Assembly (NCBI GenBank): GCA_947475165.1
Contig: CANJLD010000002.1
Location: 186,001 to 250,000 of the forward strand
Reading direction: 5' to 3'
Source: Bacteroidota bacterium
GTDB lineage: Bacteria > Bacteroidota > Bacteroidia > Chitinophagales > LD1
DNA length: 64,000 nt
In this document: positions 1-61,724 of the stretch, piece by piece
How positions within the stretch are numbered: position 1 is the stretch's first letter
Layout of the letters: each line of letters begins with the position of its first letter
The notes under the pieces: model-generated
What the model saw: the letters and a program-made list of their open reading frames with translations, nothing else
The model's database searches: none
What the model was told of the DNA's origin: nothing
Made by a program: the position numbers and the translations under genes

Positions 1-2387
1 GAAACCTTTTCTACAATCTTTTGAAGAATGTAAAAGTCGTTATCGCTGTAAACATATTTTGGATGCTCCTCCACCGGTGAATGATTGATAATACTCCACA
101 TCGTATCAGGAAAATCGTTTCGAATAAAAAGAGAATCGGCCACTTGAATAGAAAATACACCATCAGCCGTTTTGCGATAATATCTTTCGAAATTGCTGTC
201 AACCGTGTTTTTATAAAACATGAAAAATGCTTTCAGCCCCGCCTGATGGGTTAGCACATCCTTCAGTTTTAGCTTTTTTATGGTAGCATCTTTGGGCAGG
301 TCAAGGTAATCGCCAACCGTTTTGTCGAGATTTATTTTTTTCTGCTCACACAACTTCATTATCGCAATAGTGGTGGCGGCAACTTTAGAAATAGAAGCAA
401 GGTCGTATAGCTCGCCCGGTTTAACCACTTCGCTGCTCTCGTAAATTTTTGTGCCGTAGCATTTGTTCCAAATCACCTTTCCATCTTTTGCTACCAACAG
501 TTGGCAACCGGGAAACGCCTTACCATCAATTCCTTTTTGAATGATGTCGTCCATCCGTTTTAGCTCGGCAGTTTTCAAACCAACTTCTTCAGGCGAGGAA
601 ATTTTTAAACGATAAATGGAATCAGAAACAAAACCGGCACCGGCAGGAAAGGCAGGAGAAGCGGTAACTGGCAACTTACCCGATATTTTTTCGGCACCGA
701 ACAAAGCGTTTGCTGCTGCAAGGTTAGTAGCATCGTTATCTTCATATGCTTCAAGAATCCAGGGCGCGTATTCAAAAAATTTCAACGCGTAAGGATTTCC
801 GAAAACGCAAAGCACCACTTTTGTTCTGCCGGTGAGCGAGTCAATAAACTTTCTTGTTTCCTCAGTTACGTTGTAATTTTTTGCAGCCGCGCGAACCATA
901 GCGTGCAAATCAACAATCACTAAATCGTAAGTAGCCAGCGTATCGAAAATACCGTTAAACGATTTTTCGTTGTGCTCAAAACTCTGATTGAAAAAATCTA
1001 TTTCCGCAAAATTGTTGATGTGTCGCTGAAATGACGATGCACCCGAATTACCAATAGAAAGCGAGGCCACTTTTTTGTAATTCCAATCTTTGAAAGGAAG
1101 GAGATTTTCCTGATTAGCGGCAAGCGTTATCGCCTGCTCATACAATTTCAATCGAAGCAATTTGCCTTTCGTATTATTCAAATCCTCGTGCAGATTTTCA
1201 AGCGCAACGTGTTGTGGTTTATTTAACCCAAGCTTGTATTTATACGCCAGAACTTTTTTAACTCGAGTCTCTAACTCACTTACAGAAATCACTTCGCTAT
1301 CCACCGCCATTTTAATTTTTTCAATTCCCTTCGAGGCATCCTCGCTGAACACCAGAATATCGCAACCCGCCATAAACGCCATGGAGTCAACCGTGCCTGG
1401 TTTGTAATATTTAGCAACACCTCTCATGTTCAGTGCGTCTGAAAAAACCAAACCATCAAAGCCGAGTGAATCTTTCAGCCAACCGGTGGCGATTTTTTTA
1501 GAAATGGAAGCCACCGAACCGGAATCGCTGTCAAGCGCAGGAACATTTAAGTGCGCCACCATCGCGCTACCCACGTTATTTTTAAAAAGAATTTTGAAAG
1601 GATAAAACTCCAGCGAATCGAAACTGGCTGCGCTCTTTGTTATTATAGGTAAATCAAAATGCGAATCGGTATTCACATCACCATGTCCCGGAAAATGTTT
1701 GGCACATGCAAGCACACCCTCATCCTGCATTCCATCGGCATACTCAATTCCCTTTAGAGCAACTTTGTATTTGTCTTCGCCAAAACTCCGGTCATTGATA
1801 ACCGGATTGTTCGGATTGTTGTTTACATCCACATCGGGCGCAAAATTGATGTTGATGCCAATGCGCTTGCACTCGCGACCAATCTCTCTTCCCATTTCAT
1901 AAATCAAAGTGTTGTCAGCCACTGCGCCCAGCGCAATCTGATGCGGAAACGAAATCGTGGAATCTAAACGCATGGCTAAACCCCATTCTCCATCAATAGC
2001 TATAAAACTTTTCACTTTGCAGGAATCCTGAATTTTATTTGTCCATTCCGCCTGCGGCTCCGGTAGCCCTTTAAAGAAAATTACTCCACCGGCTTTGCCT
2101 TGTTTCATCCAACTCAAAACCGAATCCATGTTATAGAGCTTGCCATCGGTGTAAGCAGCAATCATAAAAAACTGCCCGATTTTTTCTTCGACCGAGAGTT
2201 GTGAGTAAACAGAGTCAACCCAACTTACGCACGCTTTGTCGTTTTTCCAGTTTCTGAAATCTGGATTTTGAGCGACAGACAACAGACAACAGACAACGGA
2301 CAACAGAGAAAGACAAAGCCTGCGCAAATCGTTTCGTATTTCGTATTTCGTATTTCGTATTTCCACTTGTGCGAATAGACAAAACAT
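1..2387 (-). CDS. GH3 beta-N-acetylhexosaminidase fused to serine beta-lactamase-like domain (3' end off window)
   Basis: The frame is open from an ATG at 2387 to the window edge (at least 795 residues). Residues 1-39 look like a signal peptide ending ..LLSVA|Q. The first domain is glycoside hydrolase family 3 of the NagZ type, with the signature KHFPGHGD at residues 230-237; this family cleaves terminal beta-linked sugars, often GlcNAc from peptidoglycan or chitin. From about residue 610 a class C beta-lactamase/esterase-like domain follows, with the SxxK motif SISK at 665-668 and a later YSD motif. Such GH3-serine hydrolase fusions occur in Bacteroidota and are expected in the periplasm or outer membrane; the role of the second domain is unknown. 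The codons for the signal peptide are made largely of two 7-bp tandem repeats. Frame was checked at several points and is continuous. Confidence 0.85.
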   Translation of the reverse strand, partial: MFCLFAQVEIRNTKYEIRNDLRRLCLSLLSVVCCLLSVAQNPDFRNWKNDKACVSWVDSVYSQLSVEEKIGQFFMIAAYTDGKLYNMDSVLSWMKQGKAGGVIFFKGLPEPQAEWTNKIQDSCKVKSFIAIDGEWGLAMRLDSTISFPHQIALGAVADNTLIYEMGREIGRECKRIGININFAPDVDVNNNPNNPVINDRSFGEDKYKVALKGIEYADGMQDEGVLACAKHFPGHGDVNTDSHFDLPIITKSAASFDSLEFYPFKILFKNNVGSAMVAHLNVPALDSDSGSVASISKKIATGWLKDSLGFDGLVFSDALNMRGVAKYYKPGTVDSMAFMAGCDILVFSEDASKGIEKIKMAVDSEVISVSELETRVKKVLAYKYKLGLNKPQHVALENLHEDLNNTKGKLLRLKLYEQAITLAANQENLLPFKDWNYKKVASLSIGNSGASSFQRHINNFAEIDFFNQSFEHNEKSFNGIFDTLATYDLVIVDLHAMVRAAAKNYNVTEETRKFIDSLTGRTKVVLCVFGNPYALKFFEYAPWILEAYEDNDATNLAAANALFGAEKISGKLPVTASPAFPAGAGFVSDSIYRLKISSPEEVGLKTAELKRMDDIIQKGIDGKAFPGCQLLVAKDGKVIWNKCYGTKIYESSEVVKPGELYDLASISKVAATTIAIMKLCEQKKINLDKTVGDYLDLPKDATIKKLKLKDVLTHQAGLKAFFMFYKNTVDSNFERYYRKTADGVFSIQVADSLFIRNDFPDTMWSIINHSPVEEHPKYVYSDNDFYILQKIVEKV
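2274..2308. repeat. 7-bp tandem repeat, consensus AACAGAC, five units
   Basis: Five consecutive heptamers (GACAGAC, AACAGAC, AACAGAC, AACGGAC, AACAGAG) lie inside the GH3 gene and encode the hydrophobic core of its signal peptide on the minus strand. Because 7 is not a multiple of 3, gain or loss of one unit would shift the frame. Confidence 0.85.
2332..2363. repeat. 7-bp tandem repeat, TTTCGTA, four units plus partial
   Basis: Four perfect copies of TTTCGTA plus TTTC. On the minus strand they encode the charged n-region (about residues 9-19) of the GH3 signal peptide, 23 bp from the AACAGAC tract. Confidence 0.9.
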
Positions 2388-2518: not shown

Positions 2519-4357
2519 ATGGACATTATTCGTCTTCTGCCCGATAATATTGCTAACCAAATTGCTGCCGGTGAGGTTATTCAACGACCTTCTTCTGCTG
2601 TAAAAGAGTTATTGGAAAATTCGATTGATTCCGGTGCTACGCATATTAAACTGATTGTAAAGCAAGCGGGAAAAAGCTTGGTGCAGGTGATAGATAACGG
2701 TTGCGGCATGAGCGAAACTGATGCCAGGATGTGTTTTGAGAAACACGCTACTTCAAAAATTCGCGCGGCTGAAGATTTGTTCAACATCCGTACCATGGGC
2801 TTTCGCGGAGAGGCACTCGCTTCTATTGCAGCCATTGCGCAAGTAGAATTAAAAACAAGGCAAACCGGGGAGCAGCTCGGCACTTCAATTGAGATTGAAG
2901 GAATGAAAGTGCTGAAACAAGAGCCCTGTCAAACAGAAGAAGGAACTTCCATTGCCATGAAGAATCTTTTCTTCAATGTTCCCGCGCGAAGAAATTTTTT
3001 GAAAAGCGATACGGTTGAATTGAAAAATATTATTGAAGAGTTTCAACGCATTGCATTGGCGCATCCGAAAATCGGCTTTCAGCTTTTCAATAATGATTAC
3101 GAAATGTATCATTTGAAATCGGGAAATCTTAAACAGCGAATTGTTGCCTTGTTCGGAGATAATTATGCCGAGAAGATTGTACCGGTAGAAGAAAAAAGCT
3201 ACGCGCTGCACGTTTACGGCTTTACCGGTAAGCCGGAATTTTCGAAGAAGACAAGAGGGGAACAATTTATTTATGTAAACAATCGTTTCATCAAATCGCC
3301 TTATTTGAATCATGCGGTTTCGATGGCGTTTGAACAAATGATTCCGCAAGGCAGTCATCCGTTTTATGTTTTGTTCTTAGATATTGATCCTTCTAAAATT
3401 GACATCAATGTTCATCCGGCTAAATATGAAATCAAGTTTGAGGACGAGAAATTGGTTTACACGTTTGTGAACCTTGGAGTGAAACACGCGCTTGGAGCTT
3501 ACAGCGTTTCTCCAACATTAGATTTTAATCAGGAACATCATTTGAATAACAACGACACGTTCACTCAACAGCCGCGTACCTGGTTGGAGATTACACAGCA
3601 GGCTACAACAACGCGTGATGCGAAGAAGTATGCACCACCAAGTAATTTCCAATCGCTTAATAAACGGGAAGAAAATAATTTGAAGAATTGGGAACATGCG
3701 TTTGATACGGTAAGCAACAACAAACAGCCGGAAACCAGAAATCAGAAATCAGAAATCAGAAGTTCAGCGGAACATGATGTTTATAAAGAAGCTGTTCCGC
3801 CACATCAAATTCAGAACAGGTACATCGTTTCGCAAATTAAGAGCGGCTTTATTTTAATTGACCAGCAAGCCGCCCATGAGCGTGTTATGTTTGAGCGGTT
3901 TTTAAAGCTGCTCGACAGAAACAGAAATGAAAGTCAACGACAACTGTTTCCGCAGAATTTGGATTTGAATGCCATGGACACACAAATCCTATTGCAGATA
4001 TTACCTGAGATAAACAATCTTGGTTTCGATATTCAGGAGTTTGGCAAAAACAGTTTCGTCATTCACGGATTTCCGGCCGATATCTTGCAAGGCGATGAAA
4101 AGAAAATGATCGAAGAATTGATTGAGCAATTCAAAATGAATTCGCAGGTAACAAAGCTTTCTAAGCGCGAAACATTGGCGAAATCATTAGCACATAGCTC
4201 AAGTATTAAAGCAGGAAAAAAACTTTCGGTAGAAGAAATGAAAACATTGATTGATGAATTGTTCGCCTGCGAAAATGCTTTCACTGCGCCCAACGGACGA
4301 TTTACTTTTATTACCCTGAACAATGATGAATTAGAAAAACGCTTCGAGAACAAATAA
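2519..4357 (+). CDS. mutL: DNA mismatch repair protein MutL
   Basis: A 612-residue MutL. The N-terminal GHKL ATPase is complete: the KELLENSIDSGA helix (catalytic Glu30 and Asn34), DNGCGMS, and GFRGEALASI near residue 95. The C-terminal dimerisation domain starts near residue 430 and carries DQQAAHERVMFE, a version of the metal-binding endonuclease motif DQHA(x)2E(x)4E in which His is replaced by Gln, so nicking activity is plausible but not certain. It couples MutS mismatch recognition to strand incision. No mutS is in the window. The linker between the domains (about residues 404-415) is encoded by a 7-bp tandem repeat. Start ATG 2519 sits directly after a TAAGTTTG promoter box. Confidence 0.97.
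   Translation: MDIIRLLPDNIANQIAAGEVIQRPSSAVKELLENSIDSGATHIKLIVKQAGKSLVQVIDNGCGMSETDARMCFEKHATSKIRAAEDLFNIRTMGFRGEALASIAAIAQVELKTRQTGEQLGTSIEIEGMKVLKQEPCQTEEGTSIAMKNLFFNVPARRNFLKSDTVELKNIIEEFQRIALAHPKIGFQLFNNDYEMYHLKSGNLKQRIVALFGDNYAEKIVPVEEKSYALHVYGFTGKPEFSKKTRGEQFIYVNNRFIKSPYLNHAVSMAFEQMIPQGSHPFYVLFLDIDPSKIDINVHPAKYEIKFEDEKLVYTFVNLGVKHALGAYSVSPTLDFNQEHHLNNNDTFTQQPRTWLEITQQATTTRDAKKYAPPSNFQSLNKREENNLKNWEHAFDTVSNNKQPETRNQKSEIRSSAEHDVYKEAVPPHQIQNRYIVSQIKSGFILIDQQAAHERVMFERFLKLLDRNRNESQRQLFPQNLDLNAMDTQILLQILPEINNLGFDIQEFGKNSFVIHGFPADILQGDEKKMIEELIEQFKMNSQVTKLSKRETLAKSLAHSSSIKAGKKLSVEEMKTLIDELFACENAFTAPNGRFTFITLNNDELEKRFENK
3729..3763. repeat. 7-bp tandem repeat (CAGAAAT) inside the mutL linker
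   Basis: Three perfect CAGAAAT units (3736-3756) are flanked by one degenerate unit on each side. They encode part of the flexible linker of MutL (ETRNQKSEIRSS). Slippage by one unit would frameshift the gene after the ATPase domain. Confidence 0.85.
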
Positions 4358-47109: not shown

Positions 47110-47670
47110 AAACTGTATTTTATTATTAAATGATTTTCCGTATCCATACACCTATTACCCTCTATGCAATTTCTTACAATAAATAGCTTTTGTATTGGCT
47201 GTTCTCTATTGTGTTCTATGTGCCTATGTGTTTAATAATTTGTTCTCAGTGGTAAATATCTACTCCATAATCACCCATATTCCATCCAAAAATCAACATT
47301 TTTCAATCAAAACAACAAATTTACCTGCTTATACCCCCTTTCGGTCTTATCATAAGCGGCTTCCGCCTGTCAATAATTATCTTCTGCCTTCCAATAATCG
47401 GCTTCGGTCATCCAATAATTATCTTCCGTCTTCCAGTAATCAGCTTCGGTCTTCTCATAATTAGTAGCTACACATCACTAATCATCATCTTTATACCCAA
47501 AAATAACATCTATCTTTCAATAATTCTAATTCGCCTTGCCTTAAATCGTTGCGGTCTTAACATTATTTCCTACTGCCTTATACAATTCAATTACTCTCCA
47601 TTTATTTCTCATGTCTGTTCGCTTATATTTTGTATTCGGCTGTTCCTCCCCTTTAGTGGTCGGGGGTTAT
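47110..47670. other. Long non-coding stretch holding a 21-bp tandem array
   Basis: About 560 bp with a marked shortage of G on the plus strand. It holds the 21-bp array (47339-47464) and, on the minus strand, a run that reads as a decayed 7-residue repeat between about 47310 and 47482, with weaker related units near 47530-47590. Nothing else is recognised. Confidence 0.6.
47339..47464 (-). repeat. Six 21-bp tandem repeats (minus strand encodes a [DN]YWKTE[AD] repeat)
   Basis: Six contiguous units of exactly 21 bp: 47339-47359, 47360-47380, 47381-47401, 47402-47422, 47423-47443, 47444-47464, consensus CTTCnGnCTTCCAATAATnnn. Read on the minus strand they encode NYEKTEA, DYWKTED, NYWMTEA, DYWKAED, NY(stop)QAEA, AYDKTER; the stop is TGA exactly where Trp (TGG) is expected. 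There is no start codon. This looks like a decayed repeat-protein gene or a minisatellite derived from one. Confidence 0.8.
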
Positions 47671-54252: not shown

Positions 54253-55071
54253 CTAATATTTGTAGAAATCTATTTTCTCTTTTTTCATTATGCCTAAGCG
54301 GTCTTTTTCGATTACTGCTAACGAAACATCGCTGGTGTCGGGAAGGGAAAGTGATTTTAATTCAAGCGTGAAAGAGTTGTAAGCGTTTAACTGATGATTG
54401 TCAAAATAAATTACCTGGTCTTGTAAAATTTGAAACTTGCTTAAGCCTTTAAGCGGAATTGTTTTTTCGTAGCTGCCGAAAATATCGAAGACAAGAATCC
54501 CGATGTTCGGGTCGTTCATATAAACTTTGTTGTCGCGCTCCATCATAAAGTTTGGATTGGGGGCTTGCTCCAATACTACGTTTAGTGCCTGACTTTCACG
54601 AAAAATCTTTCCGCCTTCGTCAATCTTTTTTAGTTTGAATTCTATGTTATCGTAAAACCAAATTCGCCCATCAGTAGAGGAGGCAACAGCAGAAATGTTT
54701 TGGTAACCGAGTTCGAAAAAGTTATAGGTATTGATGGGGGCGAGAAATCTATCCATCGTCATTATCGTCATAAAATCTGGATAGAAGACCAATAGTTTCA
54801 TCGGATTGTTTACGTCCACCATTCCAATTTTGCCATACTTGAATTCTTCATAACGGAAAAGAAATTTCCCATCCGATGAAAACTTCATTACTGAATTATT
54901 AGACGCAGCATAAAAACTTCCGAAGTTGTCAATAGCAATGTTGTTTGCTTTTGTTTCGTAAGAATTGATGAGTGTGAATGAAGGTGACAAAGAGCAAAGG
55001 GCAAAGAGCAAAAAGCAAAGAATAATCTTCTTTGAACTTTGAACTTTGATTTTTGGTCTTTGATTTTTCAT
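54253..55071 (-). CDS. Secreted beta-propeller-like protein of unknown function
   Basis: A 272-residue protein. The first 32 residues (basic n-region KNQRPKIKVQSSKK, hydrophobic IILCFLLFALCSL) form a signal peptide encoded almost entirely by two 7-bp tandem repeats. The mature part has repeated strands of the kind found in NHL or six-bladed propellers (NIAIDNFGSFYAASNNSVMKFSSDGKFLFRYE, FELGYQNISAVASSTDGRIWFYDNIEFKLKKIDEGGKIF, VYMNDPNIGILVFDIFGSYEKTI). Its ATG overlaps the lpxH stop (ATGA), so it is translationally coupled to lpxH. Confidence 0.8.
   Translation of the reverse strand: MKNQRPKIKVQSSKKIILCFLLFALCSLSPSFTLINSYETKANNIAIDNFGSFYAASNNSVMKFSSDGKFLFRYEEFKYGKIGMVDVNNPMKLLVFYPDFMTIMTMDRFLAPINTYNFFELGYQNISAVASSTDGRIWFYDNIEFKLKKIDEGGKIFRESQALNVVLEQAPNPNFMMERDNKVYMNDPNIGILVFDIFGSYEKTIPLKGLSKFQILQDQVIYFDNHQLNAYNSFTLELKSLSLPDTSDVSLAVIEKDRLGIMKKEKIDFYKY
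54986..55020. repeat. 7-bp tandem repeat, consensus AGCAAAG, five units
   Basis: GACAAAG, AGCAAAG, GGCAAAG, AGCAAAA, AGCAAAG. It encodes the hydrophobic core of the signal peptide of the gene at 54253-55071 on the minus strand. Confidence 0.85.
55030..55064. repeat. 7-bp tandem repeat, consensus CTTTGAA, five degenerate units
   Basis: CTTTGAA, CTTTGAA, CTTTGAT, TTTTGGT, CTTTGAT. It encodes the basic n-region of the same signal peptide, right after the start codon at 55071. Confidence 0.8.
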
Positions 55072-55832
55072 TTCTTAAAGTATTTCAATTCCATTTTCTC
55101 TCCATCAAACACAGCATAGCTATAATAATCGAGCCAATCTCCGGTGTTGATGTAGCGACTTTTCTCATTTAGTTGAACATCAAGAGGTAAATGACGGTGA
55201 CCGAAAACAAAAAAATCGAAATGCTCGTTCTTTAAGGTCTCGTGGCAAAATTGAACCAACCATTCTTTTTCTTCATTGGTCTGATATTCCTCAGCTGCCT
55301 TTCGTTTTCCTTCATTGCCAAATCTGCTTTCGTACGAAAAATAGCTGGCTACACGTGCGCCAATATCCGGATGTAACCAGCGAAACAAAAATTGGCAAAG
55401 CGTATTGGAGAAAACTTTCTTAATGAATTTGTAACCGTGGTCACCGGGCCCTAAGCCATCGCCATGCCCGATAAAAAATTTCTTGCCGTTGAACTCGCGT
55501 TGCGTTGGTTGAGTGTAAACTTTAGCTCCTAACTCTTGCTCAAAATAACCGAACATCCACAAGTCATGATTGCCGGTAAAAATGTGAACCGGTATGCCTG
55601 CATCGCACAATTCTGCAATTTTTCCTTGTATGCGAACAAATCCTTTGGGTATTACGGTTTTGTATTCGTGCCAGAAATCGAAGATATCGCCAATGATGAA
55701 AATTTCTGCAGCATCAGCTTTAATTTCATCGAGCCATTGCACAAATAATTTTTCGCGTGCCGCACTCGATTTTACATCAGGTGTGCCTAAGTGTAAATCA
55801 GAAGCGAAATAAATTTTCCCCGAAAATGCCAT
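55068..55832 (-). CDS. lpxH: UDP-2,3-diacylglucosamine diphosphatase-like metallophosphatase
   Basis: A 254-residue calcineurin-like phosphatase with all metal motifs in order: FASDLHLGTPD, IGDIFDFWHE, FTGNHDLWMFGY, FIGHGDGLGPGDHGYK and VFGHRHLPLD. These match LpxH/LpxH2, which hydrolyses UDP-2,3-diacylglucosamine to lipid X in lipid A synthesis; the LGPGDHGYKFIKKVF segment is typical of Bacteroidota LpxH. A TATTTTTA box lies a few nt upstream of the ATG. Confidence 0.88.
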   Translation of the reverse strand: MAFSGKIYFASDLHLGTPDVKSSAAREKLFVQWLDEIKADAAEIFIIGDIFDFWHEYKTVIPKGFVRIQGKIAELCDAGIPVHIFTGNHDLWMFGYFEQELGAKVYTQPTQREFNGKKFFIGHGDGLGPGDHGYKFIKKVFSNTLCQFLFRWLHPDIGARVASYFSYESRFGNEGKRKAAEEYQTNEEKEWLVQFCHETLKNEHFDFFVFGHRHLPLDVQLNEKSRYINTGDWLDYYSYAVFDGEKMELKYFKK

Positions 55833-60061: not shown

Positions 60062-60601
60062 TTATCTCCTTCGCCTCGTTATCAGCAGATCTTCTTTAAA
60101 TAAAGTAAAGACTTCCTTTTCGTTTTTGGGCGGTACTTCGCCACTATTGGCAACGGTGTTTATCTCCATTAAAATTGTGTTGGTTCCTTTTGTGCCGCTG
60201 TATGCTTTTGTTACTTCAACCATACTGCCTCTGTTTCGCATAGAGGGTAGCCGGTATTTAATTAAGAAAAAGACAGAGTCGTTTTTTTGAACGCAAGGCA
60301 CTTTCCGGTATTCGCCTACGCTTGCGTTTTTATCTTCTAACACGCCCAGCGAATCAAGAATGCTTTGCGTTGCTTTAAAATAGATGAGTGTATTCGGGCT
60401 GGTTATTTTTATGCCCGTTCTGTAAACGATACGGTTAAATGTTTCTGTTTTATTGGTAAGGAATGTTTGCTGAACAAAAGTGTCCATTGCAATTTTGCCT
60501 TTATAGCCCGCCATGTCTCTTCTTACAGAAAAGGTATCTGTTTTCTGCGCCTCGGCACTTGAAAACAAAAATGAAATGAAAAGAAAAAACAAAAATTTCA
60601 T
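60062..60601 (-). CDS. Secreted protein of unknown function
   Basis: A 179-residue protein with a signal peptide (..FSSAEAQ|K). The mature part is beta-rich without recognisable motifs (VQQTFLTNKTETFNRIVYRTGIKITSPNTLIYFKATQSILDSLG, SVFFLIKYRLPSMRNRGSMVEVTKAYSG) and ends in four arginines. Convergent with birA, 2 bp apart. Confidence 0.7.
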   Translation of the reverse strand: MKFLFFLFISFLFSSAEAQKTDTFSVRRDMAGYKGKIAMDTFVQQTFLTNKTETFNRIVYRTGIKITSPNTLIYFKATQSILDSLGVLEDKNASVGEYRKVPCVQKNDSVFFLIKYRLPSMRNRGSMVEVTKAYSGTKGTNTILMEINTVANSGEVPPKNEKEVFTLFKEDLLITRRRR

Positions 60602-60656: not shown

Positions 60657-61724
60657 CTATTTCAACTTCACCCGCATTTTCACCGGTTGGTGGTCGCTGA
60701 AATCAAAACCCATGTTAACTCCTTTGACTTCTTCCACTTCAATATTCGGAGATGTGAAATAGTAATCAATTACTGTAGTGAATGTTTTGGCCGGGTCAAA
60801 AGTAAACTTGTTCTTCCGGTTAGTGGCAGTGGTTGAATCATAAACATAATTCCAACCGGTAACATAGTTCGGGTCGTTGTTCTTTAAATATAATTGGTCG
60901 TCTTCCGGTTCTTTCTCCCAGGTGTGAACGTTGAATGATGGCGGAGCAATATTCCAGTCGCCACCTAACACTACATAGTTTCCTTTGGCATATTCTTCTT
61001 CCAGAATCTTTTTGGTCAACGCCATTTGCTCTTTCTTTACGCTGCCGTCATCGTAAGCTTCGAAGTGCGTGTTGATGACAACCAAATCTTTTCCATTCGC
61101 CAATTTGTAACGCTGCATGAGCAAACAACGTTCGAGATAAAATAGTTTGCGTGGGAAATCTGAAATGCCCGGTAGGGCAATTCGTTTTGATTCCACCGGT
61201 GTGAATTTTGAAAGCGTTTGCAAGCCTCCATAAACTTTTCCAATTGGATTTGTAAATGGAAACGGCAGAAATTCCACCTGATAGTTTGGCGTGAACACAT
61301 AGTTGTGTTCATGTAATATTTTTGCAAACTGCTCTGCCTGGTCAATCTTCCAGCTGCGTTTGCTGCTGCGGTCAACTTCCTGCAACATGATAAAGTCGAT
61401 GTCTTTATTATCTGCAAAAAACTTCTTCATGCCTTCATTGTTCTTCAGCACATGTTCTTTAGGTGAAGTCACCATTTTGCCGCCATCGTAAAAGAAGTCT
61501 ACCTCTTTGCCTAAACCACCATAGCCTACATTCCAAATGATAAAAGAGAAGGTGGAATCGGTAAGTGATTTCGGATTTTGGATTTCGGATTTTGGATTTA
61601 CAACTGCTACATCTTCTGCCGGTGCCGGTTTGAATTTCGTAACGATTCCAAACAAAATCATTCCGCCCACATAAAGAATGGCACTAATTAAAAGAATGCC
61701 AATGAATAGTAACACCTGTTTCAT
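60657..61724 (-). CDS. Membrane-anchored endonuclease/exonuclease/phosphatase family protein
   Basis: A 355-residue protein with one N-terminal membrane segment (about 4-30) and a periplasmic-side EEP domain: FIIWNVGYGGLG, MLQEVDRSSKRSWKIDQAEQFA (metal Glu), VINTHFEAYDDGSVKKEQ, VLGGDWNIAPP and the terminal FSDHQPVKMRVKL. It resembles neutral sphingomyelinase/phosphatase-type EEP proteins; substrate unknown. The linker after the membrane segment (about residues 43-53, NPKSEIQNPKS) is encoded by a 7-bp tandem repeat. Confidence 0.88.
   Translation of the reverse strand: MKQVLLFIGILLISAILYVGGMILFGIVTKFKPAPAEDVAVVNPKSEIQNPKSLTDSTFSFIIWNVGYGGLGKEVDFFYDGGKMVTSPKEHVLKNNEGMKKFFADNKDIDFIMLQEVDRSSKRSWKIDQAEQFAKILHEHNYVFTPNYQVEFLPFPFTNPIGKVYGGLQTLSKFTPVESKRIALPGISDFPRKLFYLERCLLMQRYKLANGKDLVVINTHFEAYDDGSVKKEQMALTKKILEEEYAKGNYVVLGGDWNIAPPSFNVHTWEKEPEDDQLYLKNNDPNYVTGWNYVYDSTTATNRKNKFTFDPAKTFTTVIDYYFTSPNIEVEEVKGVNMGFDFSDHQPVKMRVKLK
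61567..61601. repeat. 7-bp tandem repeat GATTT(C/T)G, five units
   Basis: GATTTCG, GATTTTG, GATTTCG, GATTTTG, GATTTAC. Inside the EEP gene, encoding the linker between membrane anchor and catalytic domain. Confidence 0.85.

Follow-up and report, generated by a model that had tools for sequence, protein, structure and literature searches.

Heptanucleotide repeats are over-represented in bacteria (Mrazek et al. 2007, as cited in PMC4692102 and PMC4679880), and polymerase slippage is the cause proposed in the passages of PMC4692102 and PMC4679880 that deal with them. The corresponding passage of PMC4692102 also describes repeats in general as being in excess close to N-termini. The GGGNATC repeats of Xanthomonas and Nostoc (passage in PMC4692102) resemble the arrays reported here in forming dispersed short heptamer arrays in which some positions are variable. 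The TAACTGA direct repeats of Beggiatoaceae, Cyanobacteria and a few Bacteroidetes (passage in PMC4679880) resemble them in their proximity to start codons and their patchy distribution. The tandem repeats of Borg elements, as described in a part of PMC9879509, are likewise a case in which repeat DNA quickly supplies new stretches of protein.

The arrays reported here are dispersed and dominated by period 7 like the repeats of Mrazek et al. (2007), as these are summarised in the citing passages, but they are densest in DNA coding for signal peptides (SPs) and are species-specific at a given gene. The GGGNATC repeats are, in the passage of PMC4692102, G-rich, quadruplex-forming and in excess in non-coding DNA, whereas the present arrays are A- or T-rich and located at coding starts. 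The TAACTGA repeats consist, in the passage of PMC4679880, of one fixed heptamer that is mostly found upstream of the start codon, while the present genome uses many heptamers, after the start codon and often as inverted pairs. Borg repeats belong, according to the part of PMC9879509 concerned, to archaeal extrachromosomal elements and code for disordered regions, and involve neither SPs nor period 7. The passages of PMC4692102 and PMC4679880 on heptamer repeats do not mention SPs, and a passage search of PMC4060949 returned no text on heptamers. Heptamer repeats serving as SPs were not found in a literature search by title and start of abstract, which covered mostly papers outside subscription and is weak evidence of absence. 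A coding role, if true, would differ from the mainly non-coding or regulatory one that the passages of PMC4692102 and PMC4679880 assign to heptamer repeats.

Structure of the P0001 locus

The gene P0001 is located in a window of 64 kb, the whole stretch of DNA to which the first-pass annotation applies. The positions of its parts and of other arrays in the window are given in Table 1. The N-terminus of the protein reads MKNQRPKIKVQSSKKIILCFLLFALCSLSPSF. Period-7 arrays and translation confirmed the claim of the first-pass annotation that this N-terminus is built from two heptamer tracts, one coding for the basic region and the other for the hydrophobic core. Tandem Repeats Finder reported period-7 tracts at 54988-55021 (4.9 copies, 85% matches), 55030-55049 (2.9 copies, 100% matches) and 55045-55073 (4.1 copies, 77% matches). 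The two arms are inverted versions of a single 5-bp core (CAAAG/CTTTG) with two variable positions (CAAAGNN/NNCTTTG). Orthologues of P0001 were present in 55 of the 60 genomes searched, its own genome counted, and no Pfam family was matched. In 20 of the 30 orthologues fetched the farthest in-frame ATG reads ATGA. The phosphoesterase encoded upstream is presumably LpxH-like.

Table 1. Arrays and neighbouring features in the window
Feature	Position	Strand	Description	Basis
Gene P0001	54253..55071	-	272 aa, array-built SP	ORF translation, orthologue search
Putative SP zone of P0001	54976..55071	-	codons 1-32; conserved mature part next	translation, orthologue comparison
A-rich arm of P0001	55030..55073	-	coding strand NNCAAAG units (+ strand YTTTGNN); basic n-region; from start codon	
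Spacer of P0001	55020..55029	-	10 nt; with the last units, tip of predicted hairpin	
T-rich arm of P0001	54988..55019	-	coding strand CTTTGCT/CTTTGCC/CTTTGTC units (+ strand CAAAGNN); hydrophobic core	
Calcineurin-like phosphoesterase gene	55068..55832	-	upstream of P0001; 3' end overlaps P0001 ATG by 4 nt	
A-rich arm of GH3 gene SP	2332..2363	-	TACGAAA on coding strand	
T-rich arm of GH3 gene SP	2275..2304	-	TTGTCTG on coding strand; without complementarity to A-rich arm	
Single period-7 array	61567..61599	-	GATTTCG/GATTTTG on + strand; inside 355-aa gene 60657-61724	
Single period-7 array	3731..3761	+	GAAATCA; body of 612-aa gene 2519-4357	

The coding strand of P0001 was predicted to fold as RNA into one ladder-like hairpin with steps of mostly 4-7 bp (-21.9 kcal/mol). 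Its z score of -2.76 was equalled or bettered by 3 of 200 shuffles. Such an mRNA hairpin over the start region could control translation, the coding of an SP being secondary, and a z score below -2 was obtained for 5 of 17 array genes compared with 13% of 60 randomly chosen array-free SP-like genes, with mean z scores of -1.49 and -0.33 for array genes and array-free SP-like genes, respectively. We nevertheless regard translational control as highly unlikely, given that z stayed above -2 in 12 of the 17, that the GH3 arms of the same genome are unpaired (z 0.9), and that the energy predicted for the zone differs widely from one orthologue to another.

The GH3 gene (window 3-2387, - strand) had been named as another case of paired heptamers in an SP. 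The arrays are real, as Tandem Repeats Finder returned period-7 tracts for the arms at 2275-2363, while the start codon is uncertain: the ATG at 2387 is TTG in the sister genomes G004 and G016. A stretch upstream of this ATG is partly conserved across the genus. The GH3 protein also matched the beta-lactamase family, after the GH3 domains.

The single array at 61567 begins 125 nt and ends 157 nt past the ATG of its gene, behind a hydrophobic N-terminus. The 612-aa gene with the GAAATCA array we take to be MutL from its N-terminal motif. A 179-aa gene at window 60062-60601 (- strand) had a single relative, with 34% identity, among ten genomes of the same genus, its own copy aside.

Period 7 and placement in the genome sample

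The genome comprises 3.88 Mb in 45 contigs, and a sample of 864 kb, or 22% of the genome, made up of the window and 40 stretches of 20 kb each, was scanned with a match score of 1, a mismatch score of -2 and a threshold of at least 14. This gave 40 arrays of period 7, as compared to 0, 0, 1, 4, 0, 0, 0 and 0 arrays of periods 5, 6, 8, 9, 10, 11, 12 and 13, respectively. Periods 14, 18 and 21 gave 5, 6 and 19 arrays. Head-to-tail copies of 7 bp thus exceed other periods in the 864 kb, as expected of heptanucleotide simple sequence repeats, and chance is excluded at the genome level.

Arms less than 80 nt apart were merged, and the resulting 36 elements were assigned to gene starts, gene bodies or intergenic DNA, taking the most-upstream ATG as the gene start. 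The first-pass annotation had proposed a genome-wide test for enrichment in the first 120 bp of genes with SPs and had named random placement relative to gene starts as the outcome that would speak against it. In the sample the first 120 nt held 17 of the 36 elements with 3.4 expected (p=6.6e-9), a figure that is independent of the SP rule, and placement was thus not random. When the window and stretch L040 were excluded, gene starts held 13 of 29 elements with 2.8 expected (p=7.9e-7). L040 had been placed off the regular grid beside already known array hits, and was also left out of the per-gene counts.

Gene starts were classed as SP-like by a home-made, crude rule, which 261 of 677 genes (39%) passed; it may take in N-terminal membrane helices, and an array itself can satisfy it, so that a peptide may count as an SP through its array. 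The 36 elements comprised 15 in SP-like gene starts (120 nt), 2 in other gene starts, 4 in intergenic DNA and 15 in gene bodies, corresponding to 47.0, 4.0, 4.3 and 2.2 elements per 100 kb, and the densities in SP-like starts and intergenic DNA differed with p=1.6e-6. Without the window and L040 the numbers were 11, 2, 3 and 13, and the same comparison gave p=2.9e-5. Counted per gene, the first 150 nt held a period-7 tract in 16 of 261 SP-like genes, as against 4 of 416 other genes. When the window was excluded as well, the respective counts were 13 of 232 and 4 of 388 genes, with an odds ratio of 5.7 (p=0.0014). Periods 6 and 8-13 were absent from the first 150 nt of both gene classes, and period 5 occurred once. 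Block-wise permutation of the codons of the SP-like genes left on average 0.01 genes with a period-7 tract (maximum 1 in 100 runs). No enrichment was found at non-SP N-termini (p=0.20-0.37 in four settings), and the suggested preference for N-termini therefore applies to SP-like ones and not to the others. By eye the putative array-coded SPs had a canonical look.

Array-bearing SP genes were nearer to their upstream neighbour than other SP-like genes (median 16.5 versus 74 nt), and 50% of 16 of them, compared with 21% of 244, lay within 20 nt of a co-directional upstream gene, suggesting that tight gene junctions may play a part. This proximity, by which the soft stretch of such a junction may simply be the SP, would also fit pure tolerance, in which arrays arise everywhere and survive in soft sequence, SPs being the softest coding DNA and nothing being selected. 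Arrays do occur in gene bodies and between genes, and those sampled in G226, G278 and G059 are intergenic only. Tolerance predicts, however, that intergenic DNA is at least as rich in arrays as SPs, whereas in this genome it held less than a tenth of their density, and we consider this explanation unlikely.

Period-21 arrays were degenerate (L085:12814-13012, L090:2454-2563, L093:3343-3484, L043:820-913, window 47360-47454 and others), and 16 of the 19 in the sample without L040 lay outside ORFs of at least 100 aa. Short ORFs coding for 7-residue repeats may account for some of them. Among 14 short stretches with CAAAG matches, three (L138, L141 and L144) contained no array at threshold. At L147 (about 274.7 and 275.1 kb on contig C1 of the same genome) two CAAAG arrays in the same orientation were found around a 106-aa ORF.

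Anatomy and coding properties of the arrays

The array genes include those of PorP/SprF, BatD, von Willebrand A, TPR and PhoD domain proteins and of the GH3 enzyme. Two proteins without an SP by eye (L089:15034-16326 and L137) have an A-rich array directly after the ATG. In SP genes with paired arms, the coding strand carried the A-rich arm followed by the T-rich arm in all four cases of this genome, and in the one case of G015/G016 (score at least 9). The polarity of single arrays was looser: 8 of 10 in the h-region were T-rich and 2 neutral, and of 13 in the n-region 8 were A-rich and 5 T-rich.

As 7 is a multiple of 3 plus one, all three frames of a heptamer array translate into one and the same cycle of seven residues, e.g. 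KVQSSKF from CAAAGTT and FALCSLL from CTTTGCT. In whatever frame it is read, an A-rich array with a T-rich one behind it thus yields basic residues and then hydrophobic ones. Provided that stops are avoided, both strands of an inverted array pair have this property. Such a succession of residues is what makes an SP. CTTTGAA and other CTTTGA units bring a stop in one frame. This stop-prone form made up 2 of 19 T-arm units and, as the complement, 17 of 19 A-arm units, although the units within a gene are not independent of each other. The difference in usage indicates that neither arm is a simple, recent fold-back copy of the other.

Arrays located elsewhere than in SPs were also joined in silico. 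When an A-rich array was followed by a T-rich one, 751 of 6000 joins scored as SP-like, as compared to 1 of 6000 in the opposite order. Letter-shuffled A-then-T arms gave 602 of 6000; what counts for the peptide is thus order and composition and not the period.

Turnover at the same gene start in related species

SPs are interchangeable and evolve fast. The SP zones of P0001, GH3 and PorP/SprF, chosen because arrays were present there in this genome, were compared in 15, 17 and 17 genomes of the genus, respectively; G003 was left out (partial or paralogous matches), and the BatD sequence of G016 was added. At a score of at least 9, a period-7 tract was found in 9 of 15 zones for P0001, 9 of 17 for GH3 and 10 of 17 for PorP/SprF, compared with 4 tracts of periods 5, 6, 8, 9, 10 and 11 pooled in the same 49 zones. 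The PorP/SprF zones carried CAAAGTT in G000, G017 and G004, TTGTCCG in G001, TTGTCTA in G015, AATTACA/AGTAATT in G016, CAAATAC in G005, GGTCAAT in G008, AGAAGTC in G009 and CAGTTTA in G012, and those of the remaining seven of the 17 genomes had no period-7 heptamer. For BatD the zone of G016 had a heptamer of the AATTTTCG type, and that of G000 an array of the GAAATCA type. P0002, an SP gene without an array, had orthologues in 10 of 10 genomes, and a second such gene had a match in just one genome besides its own.

Nucleotide identity was determined for a fixed 140 nt ahead of the mature part, taken as the SP zone, and for the mature part. For PorP/SprF the values of SP zone and mature part were 56% and 89% for G004-G015, 61% and 93% for G015-G016, and 59% and 80% for G000-G001. 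For P0001 they were 64% and 94% for G004-G015 and 62% and 87% for G000-G001, and for GH3 56% and 90% for G015-G016. Shuffled SP zones had a mean identity of 53% and a maximum of 59%. In 13 of the 21 species pairs of the three genes the SP zone was at most 64% identical, with the mature part at 76-94%. Other zones were similar: PorP/SprF of G000-G017 (SP 91%, mature 80%) and G000-G004 (88% and 78%), P0001 of G015-G016 (94% and 93%) and GH3 of G000-G001 (83% and 83%). As some zones are shared by descent and similar while others have diverged, replacement is episodic. In a tree of the three mature proteins from 17 genomes, G000, G001 and G017 formed one group and G004, G015 and G016 another, apart from it. 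The CAAAGTT array of PorP/SprF in G000, G017 and G004 is likely to be the older state, which would have been replaced separately in G001, G015 and G016. Sister species with mature genes 89-94% identical and unrelated array-built SPs make birth and replacement of SPs accessible to strain comparison.

The G016 PorP/SprF zone used as a query in seven genomes returned no full second copy (best array match, 31 nt at 90%), which argues against the copying of whole SPs. In the GH3 SP zone of G016 a 29-nt hairpin-like sequence was observed, and a similar one at a different place in the G015 zone (L154 and L155, respectively). With up to 3 mismatches the G016 sequence occurred 3 times in G016 and not in the 8 other genomes searched.

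The gain or loss of a 7-bp unit shifts the frame, and an array at a gene start could act as a contingency switch of the phase-variation type, with the protein alternately off and on; the passage of PMC4692102 concerned connects the general surplus of repeats close to N-termini with phase variation. Imperfect units, which damp slippage, are however common in the arrays, and arrays shared by descent stay similar, as in PorP/SprF of G000 and G017. An internal stop was found in just one orthologue match of the array genes, that of G021, which has no array. A switch of this kind appears distinctly improbable.

Proposed origin of the signal peptides

The reading that we prefer, with a probability of about 0.58, is that a process generating heptamer arrays supplies DNA coding for Sec-type SPs, and that selection keeps this DNA and repeatedly replaces it. 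A general process in the lineage, for which replication slippage is the likeliest source, would turn a limited set of heptamers into short arrays. Where an A-rich array precedes a T-rich one, basic and then hydrophobic residues would result whatever the frame. Selection would retain stop-free arrays at gene starts, as the unit usage suggests. As the comparison of species shows, a new array with another heptamer displaces the old SP in the course of evolution, presumably through intermediate steps, while the mature protein is kept. The array-coded peptides presumably work as signals.

The specificity for period 7, the concentration in SP-like N-termini and the polarity of the paired arms argue for this reading, as do frame invariance, the stop-avoiding T-arm units, the in silico joins and the species-specific heptamers. 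The share of elements in gene bodies, the scores of the shuffled arms and the T-rich arrays in the n-region argue against it, and so do the crude SP rule, the gene starts set at most-upstream ATGs, the selection of the three compared genes by their arrays and the reuse of heptamers. The wider proposition that heptamer DNA is a latent export-signal source independent of frame and strand, from whose fresh arrays SPs of this Bacteroidota clade would repeatedly be born and replaced wholesale and not by point mutation, is given somewhat less than an even chance. A repeat class with a frame-independent peptide would be a source of new SPs that is visible in the DNA.

Arrays in other lineages and reuse of heptamers

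Sampled stretches of other genomes were surveyed at a score of at least 12. Within the genus, G015 had 12 arrays (4 SP, 4 intergenic, 4 body), G016 had 14 (1 SP, 4 intergenic, 9 body) and G009 one intergenic array, while none were found in G010 and G004 (60 kb together) or in the stretches of G007 and G005. In the same family G025 had one intergenic array and G018 and G021 none. In the same order G031 had one intergenic array, G048 none, G049 seven (4 intergenic, 2 SP, 1 body) and G059 seven, all intergenic. All 11 arrays of G226 and G278, which belong to genus g48 of the same class, were intergenic. The single SP among the arrays of G016, the array-free samples of the genus and family, and the genomes with intergenic arrays only also argue against the preferred reading. 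The first-pass annotation had suggested, as one of two readings, a mechanism that creates SPs. With 15 of the 36 elements in bodies, 4 between genes, and three genomes (G226, G278 and G059) whose sampled arrays lie only between genes, a mechanism dedicated to this is not supported, and a general heptamer process with selection at SPs fits better. In the long intergenic arrays of G059 (L132-L135) one heptamer changes to another within a single tract.

Heptamers were reused within the genome: its 49 arrays contained 30 identical heptamer pairs, compared with 3.0 for letter-shuffled heptamers (maximum 11 in 2000 runs). Of 51 arrays from other genomes, 15 shared a heptamer with this genome, with 3.7 expected from shuffling (maximum 12). 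Such reuse speaks against seeds that are fully random and goes beyond what slippage alone accounts for. It would fit the insertion of an inverted-repeat element, in the manner of a miniature mobile element, that brings both arms and the centre to a gene junction in one piece. Inverted arm pairs around a short centre were seen repeatedly in this genome and also, built from different heptamers, in genus g48. The inverted CAAAG/CTTTG pair, however, was found in 1 of 395 genomes of the phylum, the present one, so that this pair is no widespread element. Moreover, an element can have two unrelated arms (GH3), the variable positions differ between the two arms, the one replaced zone tested in seven genomes had no full second copy, and no enzyme was linked to the arrays. 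Insertion is thus regarded as improbable.

The reversed pattern, used as a control in the search for the CAAAG/CTTTG pair, matched 12 g48 genomes and 3 others and is no clean null because it describes another inverted heptamer family. This second family, (GTTTCAN)n ... (NTGAAAC)n, was observed in G301, G226, G278, G083 and G311 (loci L195-L208), where a genome had as many as 60 matches to the pattern; g48 is, at a guess, Flavobacterium-like. Its arms are T-rich and then A-rich, opposite to those of the present genome. At 10 distinct loci it lay wholly between two ORFs in 7 cases, overlapped the first bases of an ORF in 2 and was located inside an ORF in 1.
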